A model generated the notes under the pieces. The model saw only the letters and a list, made by a program, of their open reading frames with translations. It searched no databases and was not told the origin of the DNA. 23,023 nucleotides of DNA, taken from the IMG/VR virus record IMGVR_UViG_3300004463_000496, positions 1 through 23,023 of that record. One strand, 5' to 3'. Made by a program: the position numbers and the translations under genes. This stretch comes from a virus. Below are positions 2,254 to 20,741 of this stretch, in pieces (position 1 is the first letter of the stretch; each line of letters starts with the position of its first letter).

Positions 2254-2526
2254 ATGACACAAGAAAAAACAACAAACATCGATATCAAAAAAATGAAAGC
2301 TGAAGTAGCGGCTAAGCAAAAGTTAGCTAAATCCGAGGAACAAGGTTTCTGGATTTCGACTAAGAATGTTATAATTGCTTTATGGCAAGTCACAATTTTT
2401 GCTAGTATTGTATTTAGCACGGTGATCATTTTCATCGGAACAGATGACAACACCACTAAAATTCTGACTCTTCCTGCAGCTAGCTATGCTGCCTACTTAT
2501 TGCTCAATAAGTTTCTTAAAAAGTAA
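2254..2526 (+). CDS. Small membrane protein with two predicted helices
   Basis: A 90-residue protein with a hydrophilic Lys/Gln-rich N-terminal segment (1-32), a hydrophobic helix at about 36-62 (NVIIALWQVTIFASIVF onward) and a second at about 68-85 (ILTLPAASYAAYLLL), ending in Lys residues. The likely topology is both ends in the cytoplasm. AAAGGA lies a few bases before the ATG. It is the first gene of a unit that also encodes a membrane-anchored lysozyme-like enzyme and a secreted CHAP enzyme. Size and topology would fit a holin or an envelope accessory factor, but a clear r1t-type holin sits in the late operon, so I do not assign a function. Confidence 0.75.
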   Translation: MTQEKTTNIDIKKMKAEVAAKQKLAKSEEQGFWISTKNVIIALWQVTIFASIVFSTVIIFIGTDDNTTKILTLPAASYAAYLLLNKFLKK

Positions 2527-2587
2527 AATAGGAGATATAACGGTCCATTATTATCAGTTTAATTCGTTAAAAAGGTAGGACTAGATT

Positions 2588-3265
2588 ATGCGTAAATTAA
2601 CATTAGTTTTAGGAATAGTACTTGTAATTGCATTTATTATTCTTGGAATTAACACCATAGTCTCCAACAACAATAAGCTAAAGCTTAGAGAAGTGCAATT
2701 AAAAAGCATGGGCTCAGAGTTGAAGGAACTAGAATCTAAATACGATGTTATTAACAAAGATTTAGATAAAGCTACTAACGAGAACAAAGCATCAGAAGAG
2801 GAAGTAAAGAAACTCAATGATGAAAAAGCTGAGCTAGAAAAGCATAAGCGAGAACTAGAATCTCAGCTTCAAGCTAAGTTAGAAGCAAAGAATAAATTAG
2901 CATCTGCATCGGCAAATCTTGTTGATACAGTTACTATGACAAAGACTGCATCTGCATCAAGCGGAAATGTTGAGTCAATTATTCGTAACGCGGCAATTAA
3001 AAATGGTTTAGACCCTGATTGGTTCTATGAGTTAGCTAAATGCGAATCTACATGGAATCCAAGTGCAGTTAACTACGGTTATTTTGAAGAAGTGAAGGGT
3101 GTTCGTCACTATCCTTCAGGTTTATTCCAACATTTAACAAATTATTGGCCTAAGCGAGCGGCAGATCATGGCTATGCAGGAGCAAGTGTCTTTGATGCTG
3201 AAGCAAATGCAAATGTTACTGCAGCTATGTGGAAATCAGGTTCACAACTATGGGAATGCCAATAA
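2588..3265 (+). CDS. Membrane-anchored coiled-coil lysozyme-like (lytic transglycosylase-type) enzyme
   Basis: A 225-residue protein. Residues 5-25 form an uncleaved N-terminal signal anchor, 28-108 a long coiled coil, 105-127 a Ser/Ala/Thr-rich linker, and 128-225 a lysozyme-like domain. The motif LAKCESTWNPSAVN (149-162) carries the expected catalytic Glu153, and YPSGLFQHLTNYW (175-187) matches the following SGLFQ-type motif of transglycosylases. Cys152 and Cys224 could form a disulphide outside the cell. The layout predicts a peptidoglycan-cleaving domain held off the membrane by the coiled coil. AAGG/AGGA precedes the ATG. The stop overlaps the start of the CHAP gene (TAATG), suggesting the two are made together. 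As I recall, the catalytic domain resembles Saccharibacteria secreted proteins; this is unverified. Confidence 0.82.
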   Translation: MRKLTLVLGIVLVIAFIILGINTIVSNNNKLKLREVQLKSMGSELKELESKYDVINKDLDKATNENKASEEEVKKLNDEKAELEKHKRELESQLQAKLEAKNKLASASANLVDTVTMTKTASASSGNVESIIRNAAIKNGLDPDWFYELAKCESTWNPSAVNYGYFEEVKGVRHYPSGLFQHLTNYWPKRAADHGYAGASVFDAEANANVTAAMWKSGSQLWECQ

Positions 3266-3993
3266 TGAAAGAGTGTTATAGATCGAGTATCATACTACTC
3301 ACATTGATACTAACAACAGTAATATCAAGTACGACAGCATTTGCCCAAACACCTTCAGCTAAGGTTGAAAAGAATCAAGCTATCGACCTTAGTATGCTTG
3401 AATTAAAAAGTCCTTTGCAAAATCAAAAAGATCCAATCATTGAGTTGAAAACTGATCTTGACAAAAAGACTGAAGCTGTGAAGACCACAGAATCTAAAGT
3501 CGAAGAGGTAAAGAAAAAGTCAGAAGAAATTGTCAAGACTAAGGAATCACTTTCTGAAGAGATCGCTAGATTAAAAGCTGAAATCGAAGATGCTAAAGCT
3601 AGAATTGAAGAAAAGAAGCGAATTGAAGCAGAAGCGGAGCAAGCTAAACTTCAACCAGTTTATCAATCAGCTCCTGTAGTTTCTTACGCTCAAACAGCTG
3701 GTAATACTTACGCTCCTGGTTATTGTACTTGGTACGTCAAGAATATGAAACCTAATCTACCAAATAGTTTAGGTAACGCAAACCAATGGTATTACAGCGC
3801 TCAAGCCCAAGGACTAGCAGTTGGATCAGCTCCAGCTGTAGGCGCAGCAGCTATGGCAATTGGTGAAAACCACGTTGCATACGTTACGGCAGTTAACGGG
3901 AATATGATCACAATTTCAGAAATGAATTATGGTGGTCTTTACCAAATGAACACTCGTACAGTTCCTGCTTCACAATTCTTATATATCTATTAG
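3265..3993 (+). CDS. Secreted CHAP-domain peptidoglycan amidase/endopeptidase
   Basis: Starting at 3265 gives 242 residues with a clear signal peptide (MKECYRSSIILLTLILTTVI, then AFA-Q at 25-28 as a cleavage site). A start at 3229 is possible by frame but would bury the signal peptide and overlap the previous gene by 37 bases, so the TAATG start is preferred. A Glu/Lys-rich coiled coil covers 60-130. A C-terminal CHAP domain follows: APGYCTWYV (150-158) with the nucleophile Cys154, ENHVAYV (201-207) with His203, and TISEMNYGG (216-224) with Glu219 and Asn221. CHAP domains cut peptide cross-links or stem peptides of peptidoglycan. Paired with the upstream lysozyme-like enzyme, glycan and peptide bonds would both be attacked from outside the membrane. 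It lies far from the lysis cassette, so a role in entry, exclusion or surface remodelling is possible. Confidence 0.87.
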   Translation: MKECYRSSIILLTLILTTVISSTTAFAQTPSAKVEKNQAIDLSMLELKSPLQNQKDPIIELKTDLDKKTEAVKTTESKVEEVKKKSEEIVKTKESLSEEIARLKAEIEDAKARIEEKKRIEAEAEQAKLQPVYQSAPVVSYAQTAGNTYAPGYCTWYVKNMKPNLPNSLGNANQWYYSAQAQGLAVGSAPAVGAAAMAIGENHVAYVTAVNGNMITISEMNYGGLYQMNTRTVPASQFLYIY

Positions 3994-4015
3994 ATTAAGA
4001 GTTAAAAAATAAATT

Positions 4016-4038
4016 AGAGGCTTTATAGCCTCTTTTTT
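4016..4038 (+). terminator. Rho-independent terminator after the CHAP gene
   Basis: The perfect arms AGAGGCT (4016-4022) and AGCCTCT (4027-4033) enclose the loop TTAT, followed by five T. Confidence 0.88.
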
Positions 4039-4041
4039 ATA

Positions 4042-4070
4042 TGTACTTTTTCAATCATAAGGATTATAAT
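4042..4070 (+). promoter_or_regulatory. Candidate promoter for the SPFH unit
   Basis: A perfect TATAAT lies at 4065-4070, with TGTACT at 4042-4047 as the -35 box and a 17-base spacer. The stretch TATGTACTTTT mirrors TATGTACATTT at the previous promoter, with the same 24-base step from ATGTAC to the -10 box. It follows a terminator directly, and the SPFH ATG is 33 bases downstream behind AAAGGGG. Confidence 0.6.
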
Positions 4071-4102
4071 TTTAATTACTACAAACAATAGAAAGGGGAA
4101 TA

Positions 4103-4912
4103 ATGGAAAAAAATCCAAACGATGTTGCTCTTGATAAGACAGCAAAGCGTGTATTAATCACGATTGTGCTTATTATCTTGGCGACACTATACTTCTTCAT
4201 CTTCTGTTTCCGAACAGTTGATGCAGGACAAGTCGGTATTATCACACGATATGGTGAGGTAAACCGAGTAGAAAAGAGCGGCGTAGCTATCAAGCTTCCA
4301 TGGCCAATCGAAAAGCTAACGAAGATGGACATTCGTGTTCAGAAAGAAGAGCAAGAATCTAAAGCAGCTTCTTCAGATCTTCAAGATGCGACAGCGACAA
4401 TTGCTCTTAACTACCGAATTAAGAACGAAACTGCTCTAGACGTTTACAAGACTCTAGGTAAAGACTACAAAACAAACGTAGTTATCCCAGCAGTTCAAGA
4501 AAGTTTCAAAGCAGCAGCCTCTAAGTATACTGTTCGTGAGTTAATCACGAAGCGTCCTGAGGTTAAGTCTGAAGCTCTCGCGGTTATTAAGACTCGTCTT
4601 GAGAAGTATGGCATTGAAGTAGTTGATGTTAATATCACAAACTTCGCTCTAAGCCAGCAATATAATGACGCAATCGAAGCAGTTCAAGTAGCTCAGCAAG
4701 AAGTTGAAAAGTCTAAGCAACAACTCGAGCAAACTAAGATTGAAGCTGAAAAGAAGATTACACAGGCTAAGGCAGACGCAGAAGCACAACGACTTCAGCA
4801 AGAAACTTTGACACCAGAACTTCTGCAGAAGTACGCAATCGACAAGTGGAATGGTATTCTACCAACCACAAATGCCGGTGGATCAACAATCTTTAGCATC
4901 CCATTAAAGTAA
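4103..4912 (+). CDS. SPFH/band-7 (prohibitin-like) membrane protein
   Basis: A 269-residue protein: a cytoplasmic N-terminus (1-16), one membrane helix (about 17-37), an SPFH domain (about 38-195) beginning with the typical VDAGQVGIITRYGEVNRVE (39-57), a coiled coil (190-235) rich in Gln/Glu/Lys/Ala, and a C-terminal LTPELLQKYAIDKWNGILP (236-254). The run from domain to coiled coil and end matches prohibitin/HflK/HflC-type proteins, which form large ring or cage assemblies in membranes and often control proteases such as FtsH. AAAGGGG lies 5 bases before the ATG, and the gene has its own candidate promoter. A 33-codon membrane ORF follows 19 bases after its stop. The family call is firm; the role in a phage (protease control, membrane organisation or superinfection exclusion) is open. 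Confidence 0.9.
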   Translation: MEKNPNDVALDKTAKRVLITIVLIILATLYFFIFCFRTVDAGQVGIITRYGEVNRVEKSGVAIKLPWPIEKLTKMDIRVQKEEQESKAASSDLQDATATIALNYRIKNETALDVYKTLGKDYKTNVVIPAVQESFKAAASKYTVRELITKRPEVKSEALAVIKTRLEKYGIEVVDVNITNFALSQQYNDAIEAVQVAQQEVEKSKQQLEQTKIEAEKKITQAKADAEAQRLQQETLTPELLQKYAIDKWNGILPTTNAGGSTIFSIPLK

Positions 4913-4931
4913 TATAAAGGAAATCAACACA

Positions 4932-5033
4932 ATGGTTTTTTTCAATAACTCACGCCGCGAATACTTTCTAATTGGTTTACTAGTTGGAACTGTCATCGCA
5001 GTTGGTACATTCTTCCTAGGTAAAATCTCTTAA
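4932..5033 (+). CDS. 33-residue single-pass membrane peptide
   Basis: This short ORF runs from ATG at 4932 to TAA at 5031-5033. The peptide starts MVFFNNSRREYFLIGLLVGT and continues as a hydrophobic helix to about residue 30, ending GKIS. AAAGGAAA lies about 9 bases before the ATG. It sits 19 bases behind the SPFH gene, and its stop overlaps the AAGGA ribosome site of the next gene. The Arg-Arg before the helix predicts the N-terminus inside the cell. Size, site and topology fit a partner or modulator of the SPFH protein; no family is recognised. Confidence 0.6.
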   Translation: MVFFNNSRREYFLIGLLVGTVIAVGTFFLGKIS

Positions 5034-5042
5034 GGATATGCC

Positions 5043-5249
5043 ATGGGCTCAAAGCACAGTATCATCAAGCGGAAGATACGAAATGGTGCAAAGCAAAGTC
5101 CTCACGAATTAGCTTCTTGCTATGGAAAAATACGTCATTCAAACTATGAAGCGGCTAGAACAGCAAATGCTAATAAGATAGATTTTGTAAAACCATACAA
5201 GTGTCAACATTGTCCGTACTATCACGTTGGTAGACGGCCAAAAGCATAA
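5043..5249 (+). CDS. Small zinc-finger protein
   Basis: A 68-residue basic protein. The C-terminal PYKCQHCPYYHVGRRPKA (51-68) contains C-x2-C-x3-H, the pattern of small phage zinc-finger proteins that end in 'Y-x-C-x-x-C-x-x-(W/Y)-H-x-G'. Cys27 in the middle could be a fourth ligand. The N-terminal part is Lys/Arg-rich. AAGGA is 6 bases before the ATG. Proteins of this type are common in actinophage genomes and are usually of unknown function; nucleic-acid binding is likely. It is the last gene of the plus-strand arm before the shared terminator. Confidence 0.75.
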   Translation: MGSKHSIIKRKIRNGAKQSPHELASCYGKIRHSNYEAARTANANKIDFVKPYKCQHCPYYHVGRRPKA

Positions 5250-5255
5250 TATAGA

Positions 5256-5284
5256 AAAAGAGACTGTATTACTCAGTCTCTTTT
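5256..5284. terminator. Two-way terminator between the converging arms
   Basis: The perfect 11-base arms AAAAGAGACTG (5256-5266) and CAGTCTCTTTT (5274-5284) enclose a 7-base loop. The A-run on one side and T-run on the other make it work in both directions. It ends the plus-strand unit and probably also stops the minus-strand late operon. Confidence 0.88.
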
Positions 5285-5386: not shown

Positions 5387-5653
5387 TTAACGAACTCGGC
5401 CTCTTGTAAATAGATTTACAATTGCTAGCAGAATCACAGAACCTGTTACAGTCATCAGGAAAGATGAAAGCGAAAGTTCGGTAACGCTAGCAGCTACACC
5501 GATAAGTGGAGCAATAAGTACGTTTGCGATAAACGCACCTATGATACCAACGATTACGTTTAGTACAATACCTTGGCTTCCATCACGGTTTAGTAAGATG
5601 CTGGCTATCCATCCTGCTAGACCACCGATAATTATAGCTAGTAGTATTCCCAT
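5387..5653 (-). CDS. GlsB/YeaQ/YmgE-family (transglycosylase-associated) membrane protein
   Basis: An 88-residue protein with three hydrophobic helices (about 2-20, 30-51 and 63-82) and the family pattern GGLAGWIAS (10-18), NVIVGIIGAFIANVL (32-46) and a Gly-containing third helix ending in basic residues. This is the GlsB/YeaQ/YmgE group, usually a bacterial stress-response membrane protein of unknown biochemical role. An AGGAGG site directly precedes the ATG, predicting strong translation. It follows the amidase and holin genes and is the last gene of the late operon, so it may help in lysis (for example as a second holin-like or anti-holin membrane protein). That role is inferred from position only. 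Confidence 0.83.
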   Translation of the reverse strand: MGILLAIIIGGLAGWIASILLNRDGSQGIVLNVIVGIIGAFIANVLIAPLIGVAASVTELSLSSFLMTVTGSVILLAIVNLFTRGRVR

Positions 5654-5666
5654 TTTCCTCCTTTGG

Positions 5667-5915
5667 TTAGTTTAGTTCTTTGGAATCGACAACAAGCGAT
5701 GCAGTGTCAGTTCCAGCTTTTCTAGCAGCAGCTAGTGATTTTAACACCGATAGCGCTGCTGCTACTCCACCTACTGCTAATACTGGGAGATAGTTGATTT
5801 GCATAAGAGTCAAATCAGAGGTTGGAGCAAGTACTGCTATGATAGCAATAATAGTTTGAGCAAAAGTTGCGATTGCGCGTTCTGCTGCGTCTTTCCAAAA
5901 TAGTTTTGTAAACAT
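5667..5915 (-). CDS. Holin, phage r1t type
   Basis: An 82-residue protein beginning MFTKLFWKDAAERAIATFAQ, the hallmark N-terminus of the r1t-type holin family (F-W-K-D-x-x-E-R-A-x-x-T-x-A-Q). Two membrane helices follow (about 17-31 and 41-63, the second with LSVLKSLAAARKAG after it), then a short polar tail. Holins of this type form the membrane lesion that releases the endolysin at the end of infection. It lies 15 bases downstream of the amidase gene, with AAGGAA before its ATG, forming a standard endolysin-holin pair. Confidence 0.9.
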   Translation of the reverse strand: MFTKLFWKDAAERAIATFAQTIIAIIAVLAPTSDLTLMQINYLPVLAVGGVAAALSVLKSLAAARKAGTDTASLVVDSKELN

Positions 5916-5930
5916 CTTTACTGTTCCTTT

Positions 5931-6980
5931 TTATTTAATTTTTTTATGAAGACTTGTTAGAGATCCCCATACTGATTTTAGTAGCTTCAAGATCTCTTGA
6001 ACAATTACTAACATCGCATTGTCTCTAGTACGATCTTCTTCTGTGTAGCCATCTTTTTCTGTGATTGGCTTTCCCGTGTCTGGCAGAGGGTTGCCATCAG
6101 GAGTTTGAGTTGTTGGAGAAGGGATAACAACTTCTGGGGCTGGTTTAGGTGGTACGATTTCAACTAGTGAACCAGCTGGGAAACCATACATCTTCTTAGC
6201 GCTGTCACGAGCATACTTAGTTCGATAGAACTTAGCACCATTTGAGTATTCAAATAGTTCAACAACGTCTTTAATTTCATCACCAATTTTGTAGACGGTT
6301 TTATTGTATGCACTACCATCAGGGATATTTGCAAGAGTTGTTGCTGCTGTAATCTTGAAGGTCTTTGGAATTTCGTATGTTGTTTTCTTTGTTTCAACAA
6401 TAGCCGGAGGAGTTACAGGAGTTGGAACTGGTGTAGGCGTTGGGGCTGGCGCTGGAGCTGGAGAAGTTTTGTTTCCACCTTTACCCCATTCAGTTGCATG
6501 GCTGTACTTAGTGTAGCTAAGAGCGTCAAGTCGTTCGATAGCATCTCGATAAACTCCAGGACATTGAGTAGGTGTAAAGTAAGAGTGCCAATATAGAGGA
6601 ACGTCACCATAAGCTGATCGAAGATCTGCAATAAGCTCAGCAACAACGTCGAAGTCTTCAGCTCGTCCTCGAGGGTCTACTTCAATACCAATTGTACGAG
6701 CATTTCCCCATGAAGAACCAGCATGCCAAGCTGCATCAGCTGGGCTAACAATACACGCAACTTGCCTATTTGTACCAGTTGCAACGAAGTGAGCTGATGA
6801 ATTGCCACCGGCTCGGCAAAGGTAATTTACGATACCTTCAAAGCTAGGATTCTGAGCAGGATCTCCCCACCAGTGAATTGTAATACCTTCAATTTGTCGG
6901 GGATAACCGAAAACGGCACCAACACTTGCGTTAGGTGTGTAGTTTGGAGAATCTCTATTTGTAATGTAATTGTATGCCAT
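5931..6980 (-). CDS. Endolysin: N-acetylmuramoyl-L-alanine amidase (Amidase_2) with linker and C-terminal domain
   Basis: A 349-residue protein. The amidase domain spans about 1-165: GITIHWWGD (32-40) with zinc ligand His36, SSAHFVA (61-67), RTIGIEVDP (95-103) with Glu100, YWHSYF (130-135) with His132, and TQCPGVY (138-144) with Cys140. It cuts between MurNAc and L-Ala of peptidoglycan. A Pro-rich linker (174-192, alternating Ala/Thr-Pro) leads to a beta-rich, SH3-like segment (about 200-278), a second Pro/Thr linker, and a C-terminal amphipathic helix with a Lys-rich end (about 315-349). There is no signal peptide, so export depends on the holin. The catalytic part resembles actinophage lysins as I recall them; the C-terminal domain probably binds the wall and is not a family I can name. 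Confidence 0.9.
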   Translation of the reverse strand: MAYNYITNRDSPNYTPNASVGAVFGYPRQIEGITIHWWGDPAQNPSFEGIVNYLCRAGGNSSAHFVATGTNRQVACIVSPADAAWHAGSSWGNARTIGIEVDPRGRAEDFDVVAELIADLRSAYGDVPLYWHSYFTPTQCPGVYRDAIERLDALSYTKYSHATEWGKGGNKTSPAPAPAPTPTPVPTPVTPPAIVETKKTTYEIPKTFKITAATTLANIPDGSAYNKTVYKIGDEIKDVVELFEYSNGAKFYRTKYARDSAKKMYGFPAGSLVEIVPPKPAPEVVIPSPTTQTPDGNPLPDTGKPITEKDGYTEEDRTRDNAMLVIVQEILKLLKSVWGSLTSLHKKIK

Positions 6981-6991
6981 TTTTTATTTCC

Positions 6992-7543
6992 TTATTTAAT
7001 TAGTTGGTCTAAGATTGACTGAGGTTGTGGAACTTGTATTGAAATTATCGGACGATTATCGTTTGGTTGAGAAGGAGTTCCAGGATTTTGAGGAGATGTA
7101 GGCGCTGGTTGTTGAGGTTGAGACGTTTGCTGAGGAGATACAGACTGTTGGGATCCTTGATCTGATTGAGTACCGTAGACTTGTGGTTGTGCTTGCACAG
7201 AAGGCGATGAAGACTGTCGAGTAGATCCATTAGATGACTTAGAAGATTCTGGCTCGTCTACATCAATACCACATTTGTCGAACATCTCTTTTGATCTATC
7301 TGATAATGGTAAGAGCTGTGTACTTGCAACGCATTTAATATACTGTTGAGTTTTCTTGTGTTCAGCAACGATCGTTTGTTTGTTTGCTTCGAGAGCATTT
7401 TCAATTTGATGTTGAATTGATACTAACTGGACAATAATAAGAATGAGTGTGCCAAAGAATATAACAAGAGCACTAATCGAACTTGCTTTAATAACGCTAT
7501 TAGCGTTATCAATCTTGTGATCTAATTCCTCTTGTCTACTCAT
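6992..7543 (-). CDS. Membrane-anchored protein with a long Gln/Ser/Pro-rich tail
   Basis: A 183-residue protein with one N-terminal membrane helix (about 20-43, SISALVIFFGTLILIIVQLV), a coiled-coil stretch (44-70), a pair of cysteines in KCVASTQ and FDKCGID (about 70 and 91), and a low-complexity Ser/Gln/Pro region from about 98 to 168. It starts at a TAATG overlap with the upstream gene and is followed 11 bases later by the endolysin gene. One-helix proteins with a Cys-containing outer segment occur beside the lysis genes of actinophages and have no proven job; a spanin-like or holin-modulating role is possible. The Pro/Gln tail could span or bind the wall. Confidence 0.78.
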   Translation of the reverse strand: MSRQEELDHKIDNANSVIKASSISALVIFFGTLILIIVQLVSIQHQIENALEANKQTIVAEHKKTQQYIKCVASTQLLPLSDRSKEMFDKCGIDVDEPESSKSSNGSTRQSSSPSVQAQPQVYGTQSDQGSQQSVSPQQTSQPQQPAPTSPQNPGTPSQPNDNRPIISIQVPQPQSILDQLIK

Positions 7544-7869
7544 TATTTCTTTTCCTTATCGGCTGCTATAGCTTTCATGACTTCCTTATGGTTATCTTGC
7601 ATTAACTTCATCATAGGAGCTAAAGGTGGTGTCTTGATTTTTTCTAGTGTATTTACACGACCGGTTAATTCATTGATTTTAGCGGCATATTCTGTTGTTA
7701 ACGCTTCAAGCTGAGTTTCTAGCTGTGCGTTTCTCTCCTTATAAGCATCATTACTTTCTCTAAGTGTTGTAATGATTGTCTTACTTCTAACTCCGTAGAA
7801 TGAAGCTGCTATAGTCCCTAAGATAGATGCGATCGTGAACGCTGTTAAGATGTAATTTATCAATGTCAT
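7543..7869 (-). CDS. Small membrane-anchored coiled-coil protein
   Basis: A 108-residue protein with an N-terminal membrane helix (about 5-25), a coiled coil (about 36-78, rich in Glu/Leu/Asn) and a C-terminal segment with PPLAPMMKLMQDNHKEVMKA (81-100). GGAG lies 11 bases before the ATG, and the TAG stop of the upstream gene forms part of this site (TAGGAG). The stop overlaps the next ATG (TAATG), so the two membrane proteins are likely co-translated. Its place between tail genes and endolysin suggests a lysis-accessory function, which is inference. Confidence 0.75.
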   Translation of the reverse strand: MTLINYILTAFTIASILGTIAASFYGVRSKTIITTLRESNDAYKERNAQLETQLEALTTEYAAKINELTGRVNTLEKIKTPPLAPMMKLMQDNHKEVMKAIAADKEKK

Positions 7870-18502: not shown

Positions 18503-18523
18503 TAAGCTATTAAGATTAGCTTA
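18503..18523. repeat. Short inverted repeat at the capsid gene stop
   Basis: TAAGCTA (18503-18509) and TAGCTTA (18517-18523) form 7-base arms around a 7-base loop and overlap the TAA of the capsid gene. No T-run follows on the minus strand, so it is not a standard terminator; mild attenuation or mRNA end protection is possible. Confidence 0.35.
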
Positions 18524-20741
18524 CTGATACAGCAACAGCTGAAGTCATACCTGAAACGCGAGCGTCATCAAGGATAGCACCACCGCGGAAGAATGATCCA
18601 CGAAGTACAAGTTCGTTGCGTTGGTAAGCTGACTTTACAACACCATTTTGTTCGTAGGCAGCTTCTGTTGATAGGTCGTATTGTAGACCACCACTTGTGC
18701 GTCCCGTGAAGTTTGATAGGTCGAAGTAGAATACAGCGTGGTTAACAACGACGTTTGCGCCTTCAACTACGTGAGTAACTGTAGCACCTGAGTTTAGAGC
18801 AGGCATTAGGTCGTTTGGAACAACGATGAATGGTCGTCCGAAGATTGTTGGTACATCACCTGTTAGGAAGATACCAGCTAGAGGACCGTTAGCACCAGCG
18901 TCAACTGCAGCTTTTTGGATCAGAGCGAACGTAGACATGTTGAAGATGAAAGTACCGTTGATAGTAGTTTCAGCAACCTTAGCCCATAGTTGTACCCATG
19001 ATGTAAGTGATTCAGCAGTATTAGGAGTTGCAGTGTAAGCAATTGAGTTGCTTGAGTTTGCAGCAACAGCTTGTTGTAGACGAGCAATAACAAGTTGTGC
19101 ACGCTTGCGGTCGTAGTCATTTCGGTAACCACGAGCAACGTCACCAAGTAGGTCAACAGCTAGGAAACGAGTTGCAGAGTTACATACTGGAGTAACAGCA
19201 GCTAGTTCTTCAAGCTTAGATACAACTGGTTCAGCAGAGTATTCGCTAATTGGCTTAAGGTTTCCGTCACCGTCTTCACCTGGTTCAAGATCAACTGATT
19301 GCATGTTGATGTCGCCAGAGCGCTTTAGCCATGCGAATTCTAGTGATAGAGTTTCACGCCAGTCAGTCGCGTTGATAAGCGCTGAGTAGTCGTTTCGGTA
19401 TCCTTGAATTTCTGTTAGAAGTTCAGGAGAGATAACGAAGTTACCGAAGTCAGAGATTGAAAGAGTGTTTTCAACTTTACCTTCGCTCTTAAGAGCTTCA
19501 AGGTTTACTTCGTTTAGTTCGTTTAGAGTGTTAGCAGCTTCGATGCGGCCAAGCTTTAGGTATTCCCAAGCAGCGTTGATTTGCTTAGCGTGGCGTTCCT
19601 TGTAACCAAGTTCAGCGTAAGCATTCTCAGACTTAGTAGCACCAGCTGGCTTAAATGCAGGTTCTTGAGCTGACTTTTCGAAAGCTTCTTTAAGAGCAGC
19701 AACTTGAGCTTGCATATCAGCAGTAGCAGCGTTAACAGCTTTTGCGATTTCAGCTGAGTTGTCAACCTTAGGAGCTTCAGCACCAGTAACTTGAGCTTCA
19801 ACAGCTTCTTGCTGATCTTCAGCTACGTCTACAGTCTTACCTGCTTCAAGGACAGTCTCTACGTCTTCACCAGCAGCGTTCTTGTAAGTAACGGTAACTG
19901 GGAAATCACGACTGTTTTTGATTGTTACGAATTTCATTTCGTCTTTTTCCTCATTTTTGTTATTTTGTTTTTCTTCTTCTTCAGAAATGCGTTTAGCTTC
20001 TTCAGCCTCTTCAGCTTCTTTAGCAATACGAGCTTCTTCTTCTGCTTTGGCTTCTTCAGCTGCTTTATCAGCGGCTTCTTTTTCCTCAGCTTCTTTTTTA
20101 GCTTGTTCTGCTTCTTCGGCTTCCTTGGCTTCTAGAGCTTTAGCTTCTTCTTCAGATTCGGCGGGAATTTCTTCAGTATGTTCTGAACTAATAGTTGTTT
20201 CAACTTCAGTTGCAAGAATCTTTTCTACTTCTGTCGTATCCAGACCGTCTTCTTTGGATTGCTCTAGAGAGTTCTTAACGATCGCGTTGACCGTTGCTCC
20301 CTTGTTATTGCCTACGACAACTTGACTTAGTCCGATAAGCTTTGCGTTCATGTAAACGCCCTCATCGCCAGGCCATGGTCCATAAGTTTCGATAGAGAAA
20401 TCGGTTGAGAATCCGTTAACTAAGAGATTGTAAGCAAGTCGTGCAAGTGGATTTTCCTTAACTGCATATACGAGTTTGTTTACCGTAACTTTGTTTTTTG
20501 TTTTCTGTACACCTTCTACTCGAGCGATAATATTTTCAAGAGTGTCAATATGGTTTGCAGTTACCTGCCCCTTATATTCACTGATGTCCATAGTTTCGAT
20601 ATCGTAACTTGTACCATTACGCTGGACGCTGTCGTCCGTTATTGCAAGACCCTTAGGGAATGTTACCACCCCGTCGCCTTCGTCAATAAAAGCGTTCTTC
20701 TCTACAAGCACACCCACATGATGTTTTTGGATTTTTGTCAT
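18516..20741 (-). CDS. Prohead protease-major capsid protein fusion (HK97 type)
   Basis: A 741-residue polyprotein. Residues 1-160 form an HK97-type prohead protease: His64 in TANHIDTL (61-68) and Ser112 in NGFSTDFSIETYG (109-121) stand at the expected catalytic sites. Residues 195-268 are a long Glu/Ala/Lys coil of scaffold (delta) style. Residues about 269-320 are a small beta-like segment (FVTIKNSRDFPVTVTYKNAA) and 335-365 another helix. The HK97-fold capsid protein covers about 375-735, with DFGNFVISPELLTEIQGYRN (431-450), IFLTGDVPTIFGRPFIVVPN (624-643) and AYQRNELVLRGSFFRGGAIL (705-724). Cleavage would free the mature capsid subunit. AAGGAA precedes the start. The gene also has a good internal start at Met269. 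In many phages the two functions are separate genes. Confidence 0.9.
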   Translation of the reverse strand: MTKIQKHHVGVLVEKNAFIDEGDGVVTFPKGLAITDDSVQRNGTSYDIETMDISEYKGQVTANHIDTLENIIARVEGVQKTKNKVTVNKLVYAVKENPLARLAYNLLVNGFSTDFSIETYGPWPGDEGVYMNAKLIGLSQVVVGNNKGATVNAIVKNSLEQSKEDGLDTTEVEKILATEVETTISSEHTEEIPAESEEEAKALEAKEAEEAEQAKKEAEEKEAADKAAEEAKAEEEARIAKEAEEAEEAKRISEEEEKQNNKNEEKDEMKFVTIKNSRDFPVTVTYKNAAGEDVETVLEAGKTVDVAEDQQEAVEAQVTGAEAPKVDNSAEIAKAVNAATADMQAQVAALKEAFEKSAQEPAFKPAGATKSENAYAELGYKERHAKQINAAWEYLKLGRIEAANTLNELNEVNLEALKSEGKVENTLSISDFGNFVISPELLTEIQGYRNDYSALINATDWRETLSLEFAWLKRSGDINMQSVDLEPGEDGDGNLKPISEYSAEPVVSKLEELAAVTPVCNSATRFLAVDLLGDVARGYRNDYDRKRAQLVIARLQQAVAANSSNSIAYTATPNTAESLTSWVQLWAKVAETTINGTFIFNMSTFALIQKAAVDAGANGPLAGIFLTGDVPTIFGRPFIVVPNDLMPALNSGATVTHVVEGANVVVNHAVFYFDLSNFTGRTSGGLQYDLSTEAAYEQNGVVKSAYQRNELVLRGSFFRGGAILDDARVSGMTSAVAVSVS
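19935..19952 (-). promoter_or_regulatory. Candidate internal ribosome site and start inside the protease-capsid gene
   Basis: On the minus strand GAGG (19952-19949) lies 11 bases before an in-frame ATG (19937-19935), codon 269. Starting there would give a 473-residue protein holding the second scaffold-like part and the whole capsid domain but no protease. The site falls exactly at the end of the charged coil, where a domain boundary is expected. Confidence 0.45.

Follow-up and report, generated by a model that had tools for sequence, protein, structure and literature searches.

The IMG/VR record IMGVR_UViG_3300004463_000496 is a phage fragment, and the window considered here is the entire linear record of 23,023 base pairs. 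One strand (+) encodes a small membrane protein (gene A), two predicted wall hydrolases with export signals (genes B and C), and an SPFH/prohibitin-like membrane protein (gene D), which together may form an accessory lysis module of a phage of Saccharibacteria. These genes belong to two units, A-B-C and D-micropeptide-5043-5249, both on the + strand; the late genes lie on the opposite strand (-), beginning with the lysis cassette. The open reading frames of A, B, C, D, and the micropeptide are present at the coordinates given in an initial annotation of the same DNA, and the domains of B, C, and D score above the cut-offs of their families. No nucleotide-level relative of the window occurs among 50,697 phage records.

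Gene A and its pairing with gene B

Gene A (2254-2526, +) encodes a membrane protein of 90 residues, recognized from its open reading frame, its hydropathy, and its relatives. Hydropathy predicts two helices separated by a short acidic loop, a topology like that of class II holins; the helices, the short loop, and the charged C-terminus fit that class, with the second helix weaker in the window. Export signals are judged here from hydropathy and reading by eye. Clear hydrophobic N-terminal segments are found in B, C, D, and the 33-residue micropeptide, and the main helix of A is also clear.

Gene A is positioned directly upstream of gene B in the window and in two related phage contigs, L005 (IMGVR_UViG_3300023106_000027) and L104 (IMGVR_UViG_3300020147_000020). 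L005 has A-B-C in the same order as the window. L104 has A-B without C, and the genes that face this pair from the opposite strand encode a holin-like protein, a LysM protein, and an M23 peptidase; elsewhere in this contig (L104:3806-5788), a RecT gene is followed by a single phage protein that joins PD-(D/E)XK nuclease and FtsK-type domains. The initial annotation expected the gene order to be conserved as a five-gene unit, an expectation that the relatives contradict: A-B recurs in both, C in one of the two, and D with the micropeptide in neither. What is conserved is thus the pair A-B, to which C is sometimes added. Full-length gene B used as a query against viral contigs gave no match, and its relatives were reached through gene C and an alignment of the anchor.

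The constant position of A directly upstream of B, the two helices and class II holin-like topology of A, and the N-terminal helix of B could also describe a self-contained second lysis cassette of the pinholin/signal-anchor endolysin kind, in which pores formed by A would depolarize the membrane and free or activate B. This arrangement is improbable. The helix of B in the window, at a Kyte-Doolittle value of 2.88, is strongly hydrophobic, whereas anchors that can be released are weakly so; the value is 2.02 in L005 and falls to 1.77 in L104. Moreover, the phage already has a true holin and endolysin, and A lacks a match to a holin family.

An exchanged catalytic domain in gene B

In gene B (2588-3265, +), a signal anchor and a coiled coil precede an SLT lysozyme-type domain at 2960-3262, which has its catalytic glutamate within the motif CESTWNP. 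The whole protein scores 22.1 bits against PF01464 (SLT; cut-off 21.3), and the domain alone scores 24.5 bits. No signal-peptidase-like site is seen by eye, and the N-terminal helix is therefore read as a signal anchor. Across the window, L005, and L104, the anchor and coiled coil match at 38-44% over about 115 residues and include the linker T-TASA-SG. When 393 Saccharibacteria-class genomes were searched for this anchor module, only two weak coiled-coil matches appeared; by sequence comparison, this part of B is phage-specific.

The catalytic domain attached to this anchor differs between phages: it is of the SLT type in the window, whereas in L005 and L104 it is of the aggregation-promoting-factor C-terminal type (NF052397, 60.8 and 58.0 bits, cut-off 40). 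The catalytic glutamate is retained in both types. Each type is also the C-terminal domain of host DUF348-G5 (RpfB-like) proteins, the SLT type in L169 and L171 and the aggregation-promoting-factor type in L179 and L184. The catalytic domain of B in the window is 55% identical to that of L169 and 45% identical to that of L171, and 52-53% identical to two sequences from the Saccharibacteria class; that of phage L104 is 63% identical to L179 and 60% identical to L184. A ksgA-like gene, identified by eye, is found near the RpfB-like gene in L169, L171, and L179; rpfB and ksgA are linked in actinobacteria.

In the RpfB-like proteins of Saccharibacteria, a signal or anchor segment is followed by DUF348, G5, and the lysozyme domain. 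The phage protein shares the catalytic domain and has its own helix and coiled coil in place of DUF348 and G5 (PF03990 and PF07501), which a Pfam search finds in the host homologues and not in gene B. Because it has the catalytic domain of the RpfB family without these two regions, gene B is not filed as RpfB. A sequence search of the PDB with both types of B catalytic domain gave no match. The PADLOC matches of B and C are chance matches of their coiled coils, as are many weak Pfam and PHROG matches.

From these alignments, host wall-growth catalytic domains seem to have been joined to the phages' own membrane handle on two or more occasions, or one type to have been swapped for the other. 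A tentative extension is that a fixed phage handle, made of A and the anchor and coiled coil of B, takes up the RpfB-like catalytic domain of its host lineage, so that the enzyme would follow the host's wall chemistry and take over its site of wall growth.

Gene C and the host lineage

Gene C (3265-3993, +) encodes a signal peptide, a coiled coil, and a CHAP domain. Genes B and C overlap as TAATG and are thus probably translationally coupled; a further in-frame ATG for C is present at 3256. The CHAP domain matches PF05257 above the cut-off (E=2.4e-13) and retains the conserved residues Cys154, His203, and Glu219/Asn221. A signal-peptidase-like site (AFA-QT, with the hyphen at the cut) was recognized by eye. 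The initial annotation is thus supported in that B and C are wall hydrolases with export or anchor signals, encoded outside the late cassette; their predicted targets are glycan bonds and peptide or amide bonds.

When the CHAP alignment was compared with 84,980 species genomes, the top block of matches was nearly all from Candidatus Saccharibacteria / Patescibacteria, in which such proteins usually have the form signal peptide - LysM - CHAP. Window C shares with these proteins the CHAP domain, the catalytic residues, and secretion, and differs in having a coiled coil in place of LysM. In a CHAP tree, window C falls within a clade of Saccharibacteria and phage sequences (support 97/91). L005 C lies outside this clade without a resolved position, so the tree does not establish a common origin of the two coiled-coil CHAP proteins. 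PcsB, a streptococcal division hydrolase, has the same combination of signal peptide, coiled coil, and CHAP, and its CHAP domain is similar (PDB 9r6w, 4cgk); however, window C scores 77.8 against a cut-off of 450 for the NCBIfam equivalog NF046104 and is not classed as PcsB.

Exported LysM-CHAP genes opposite in strand to terminase, amidase, or tail genes are found in about 15 further contigs; in two exceptions, L002 and L003, the CHAP gene follows the capsid gene on the same strand. In many Saccharibacteria-type phage contigs (L002-L022, L125-L130), a gene of the form signal peptide - LysM - CHAP stands alone on the strand opposite to that of the terminase, amidase, or tail genes. Four late proteins of the window, the tape measure among them, have counterparts on a phage-like contig of 42,979 base pairs in a Saccharibacteria-class genome (L142-L144, G293:C8), in which genes for a GroEL-like protein and a XerC-like recombinase were also read by eye.

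Saccharibacteria are very small bacteria that grow while attached to cells of other bacterial species. Since the relatives of the CHAP domain, of gene D, and of the B catalytic domain, together with the shared late proteins, all lead to this group, the host is most likely a Saccharibacteria lineage. The epibiotic host proposed in the initial annotation agrees with these sequence relatives. With an epibiotic host, the target of the enzymes could instead be the partner bacterium's wall, where cutting at the site of contact would help nutrients to pass or virions to leave. Such action is very unlikely: B is tethered to the membrane of the cell that produces it, the enzymes resemble the epibiont's own wall enzymes, and no partner-specific binding domain is seen, window C lacking even LysM.

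Wall growth as a possible alternative role

The likeness of B and C to host enzymes bears on another explanation, in which the proteins remodel the wall of the living host, either to exclude a second phage or to promote Rpf-like wall growth, without any role in lysis. B has the catalytic domain found in RpfB-like growth enzymes of the hosts, C is similar to their LysM-CHAP and PcsB-type division enzymes, and the genes form units of their own on the early strand. Moreover, a similar SLT domain is found beside recT in L170, which looks like a prophage edge at tRNA-Gly. Against these points, in each of the three phages with A-B the module adjoins lysis-side genes, no match to an exclusion gene is seen (PADLOC giving coiled-coil chance matches only), and no tyrosine or serine integrase is found in 20-22 related contigs, which are fragments. 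Remodelling of the living wall is thus unlikely, if less so than outward action on a partner.

The absence of integrases in these contigs also leaves the role in lysogeny that was initially suggested unsupported; a related phage contig in a Saccharibacteria-class genome encodes a XerC-like protein, recognized by eye. Readings of the genes as a defence system or as lysogeny functions were dropped for lack of support.

L170 has further features of its own. At L170:2096-2757 (Saccharibacteria-class genome G020, contig C42), a membrane protein of 85 residues overlaps the SLT open reading frame in the -1 frame at a slippery heptamer, U UUA AAA. A -1 frameshift there (programmed, a mutation, or an assembly error) would yield an anchor and SLT architecture like that of window B. 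A gene for a CAP protein (PF00188) with a signal peptide comes after these.

Gene D, the micropeptide, and gene 5043-5249

Gene D (4103-4912, +) encodes a membrane-anchored protein in which a Band_7 domain (PF01145, E=2.4e-29) follows an N-terminal helix, the arrangement of the SPFH/prohibitin superfamily. Its scores are below the cut-offs for HflK/HflC (50.9 against 159.4 for TIGR01933; 37.1 against 134.4 for TIGR01932). Among 383 genomes of the Saccharibacteria class, its closest relatives are chromosomal genes with 59, 57, and 53% identity, and in a tree it pairs with one of these (support 87/89). It is at most 40% identical to the SPFH proteins found in 324 annotated phage records, which represent very diverse kinds of phage.

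Downstream of D, the unit continues with a 33-residue, single-helix membrane micropeptide that has a good ribosome-binding site (4932-5033, +) and a 68-residue protein rich in cysteine and histidine (5043-5249, +), which matches phrog_15216 in profile searches. Neither has a relative among the fetched loci. The protein of 5043-5249 is probably a zinc protein rather than an envelope protein; the description of the genes as envelope genes in the initial annotation fits A, B, C, D, and the micropeptide and fails for this last one.

There is somewhat less than an even chance that D and the micropeptide are a separate accessory unit, concerned for example with control of FtsH proteolysis, that lies by chance beside A-B-C; this is compatible with any role of A-B-C. 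D has its own terminator-bounded unit and is absent from the A-B relatives, it matches the HflK/HflC models below cut-off, and SPFH genes occur in phages of very different kinds. On the other side, Kayvirus too has an SPFH gene between its endolysin and a secreted transglycosylase.

The adjoining lysis cassette and transcription signals

The exported lysozyme-fold gene B adjoins, yet stands apart from, a canonical holin/endolysin cassette. This cassette had been placed at 5387-7869 and described as separate, and its core is confirmed by an r1t holin (5667-5915, -; PF16945, phrog_443) and an Amidase_2 endolysin with no evident signal peptide (5931-6980, -; PF01510, phrog_4018). Beside the holin is a small membrane protein (5387-5653, -; PF04226, Transgly_assoc) that is also present in L005, where its counterpart matches at 53% over 45 residues. 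Further along the - strand, 18516-20741 encodes a protein of 741 residues that reads like a prohead protease fused to a major capsid protein and has no Pfam match at E 0.001.

The two units had been described as having their own promoters and terminators. The terminators are supported by a hairpin scan, in which a terminator-like hairpin with a T run (2149-2174, +) ends the upstream gene block and a second hairpin (4016-4033, +) ends unit A-B-C. The promoters are not firm. A possible extended -10 box, TGATAAGAT, precedes A-B-C (2212-2220, +), and a perfect TATAAT -10 box precedes D-micropeptide-5043-5249 (4065-4070, +); both were read by eye and are weak, the first without a good -35 box and the second with a poor one. 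For early transcription from host-type promoters, only these -10 boxes are seen, and promoter-like sites in the window are not in excess (29 against 22.9 +/- 4.5). Between the converging units, an inverted repeat read by eye (AGAGACTG-N7-CAGTCTCT, 5256-5284) has A/T flanks and is likely a bidirectional terminator; it is missing from the terminator scan, probably because its stem absorbs the T run.

A proposed accessory lysis module

The nearest analogue is the lytic region of the staphylococcal Kayvirus, which has the order holin - LysK - MbpV (a holin-like small membrane gene) - MbpS (SPFH) - Tgl (PMC7150955). Tgl is a secreted, Rpf-like transglycosylase that resembles host autolysins and is called an additional endolysin by the authors; tgl is transcribed early by the host RNA polymerase and its product is exported, and Tgl is lytic in S. 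aureus only upon membrane depolarization (PMC7150955). Both regions have a small membrane protein, an SPFH protein, and an exported, Rpf-like lysozyme-fold enzyme beside the main holin and endolysin. Gene B is of the Tgl kind in combining an N-terminal export signal with a lysozyme-fold hydrolase that has its catalytic glutamate. In contrast to Kayvirus, in which the CHAP and amidase activities reside in LysK, the CHAP domain of the window is a separate exported protein; B is anchored in the membrane with a coiled coil; the module has a different order and lies on the opposite strand; and the host, by inference, is Saccharibacteria. The likeness is one of gene kinds, with no sequence kinship of the whole module shown.

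Because the window has the elements of the Kayvirus region in another order and strand arrangement, A-B-C is taken as an accessory lysis module and D as a possible scaffold for it. By this analogy, A-B-C and D would serve a Saccharibacteria phage as an accessory module for wall hydrolysis that depends on export, with a probability of about 0.5. Production of B and C would precede that of the late proteins or be independent of it, and the host Sec machinery would export both. B, held in the membrane by its own anchor, would cut glycan strands, and secreted C would cut peptide or amide bonds, the two together weakening or preloading the wall ahead of the late holin. The r1t-type holin would then collapse the membrane potential, on which the action of the exported enzymes may depend, and free the cytosolic amidase, leading to fast and full opening of the cell. 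A, as the partner of B, would be a small membrane protein resembling a holin or antiholin. D would build a scaffold of the prohibitin type in the membrane, which might collect or shield the enzymes or the FtsH-type proteolysis machinery. The initial annotation proposed that no holin is needed, which is reasonable for export; for lysis it does not carry over, as Tgl lyses Staphylococcus only after the potential has collapsed (PMC7150955).

Several observations weigh against an accessory lysis module. Family profile searches match A to no holin family. A-B is found in only three phages (the window, L005, and L104), and the absence of D and the micropeptide from the two relatives means that D may be functionally unrelated. 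A module on the early strand would leave its enzymes outside the membrane long before lysis. The AlphaFold models of B and C have low confidence (mean predicted local distance difference test scores, pLDDT, of 44.5 and 56.6) and are unusable. Even so, accessory lysis fits the position of the genes and the precedent better than surface remodelling, exclusion, or action on a partner cell.

Relation to known systems and significance

Exported accessory endolysins and phage SPFH proteins are already known. Secreted and signal-anchor endolysins (fOg44 Lys44 and the signal-arrest-release, or SAR, endolysins) likewise export a wall hydrolase in a way that bypasses the holin; in the window, two exported enzymes, one with a strong anchor, are additional to a canonical cytosolic amidase. 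The literature reached contained no report of Saccharibacteria phages that combine a secreted coiled-coil CHAP protein with an RpfB-like enzyme that is anchored and has an exchanged domain.

Hardly any work exists on how phages lyse Saccharibacteria, and this set of genes offers two exported enzymes, with host-like source domains, that are testable in cultured Saccharibacteria. In two phage groups that are unrelated, an exported Rpf-like enzyme, an SPFH protein, and a small membrane protein are encoded next to the lysis genes. This points to a general design for accessory lysis, and the trio suggests a use for the many phage SPFH genes of unknown function.

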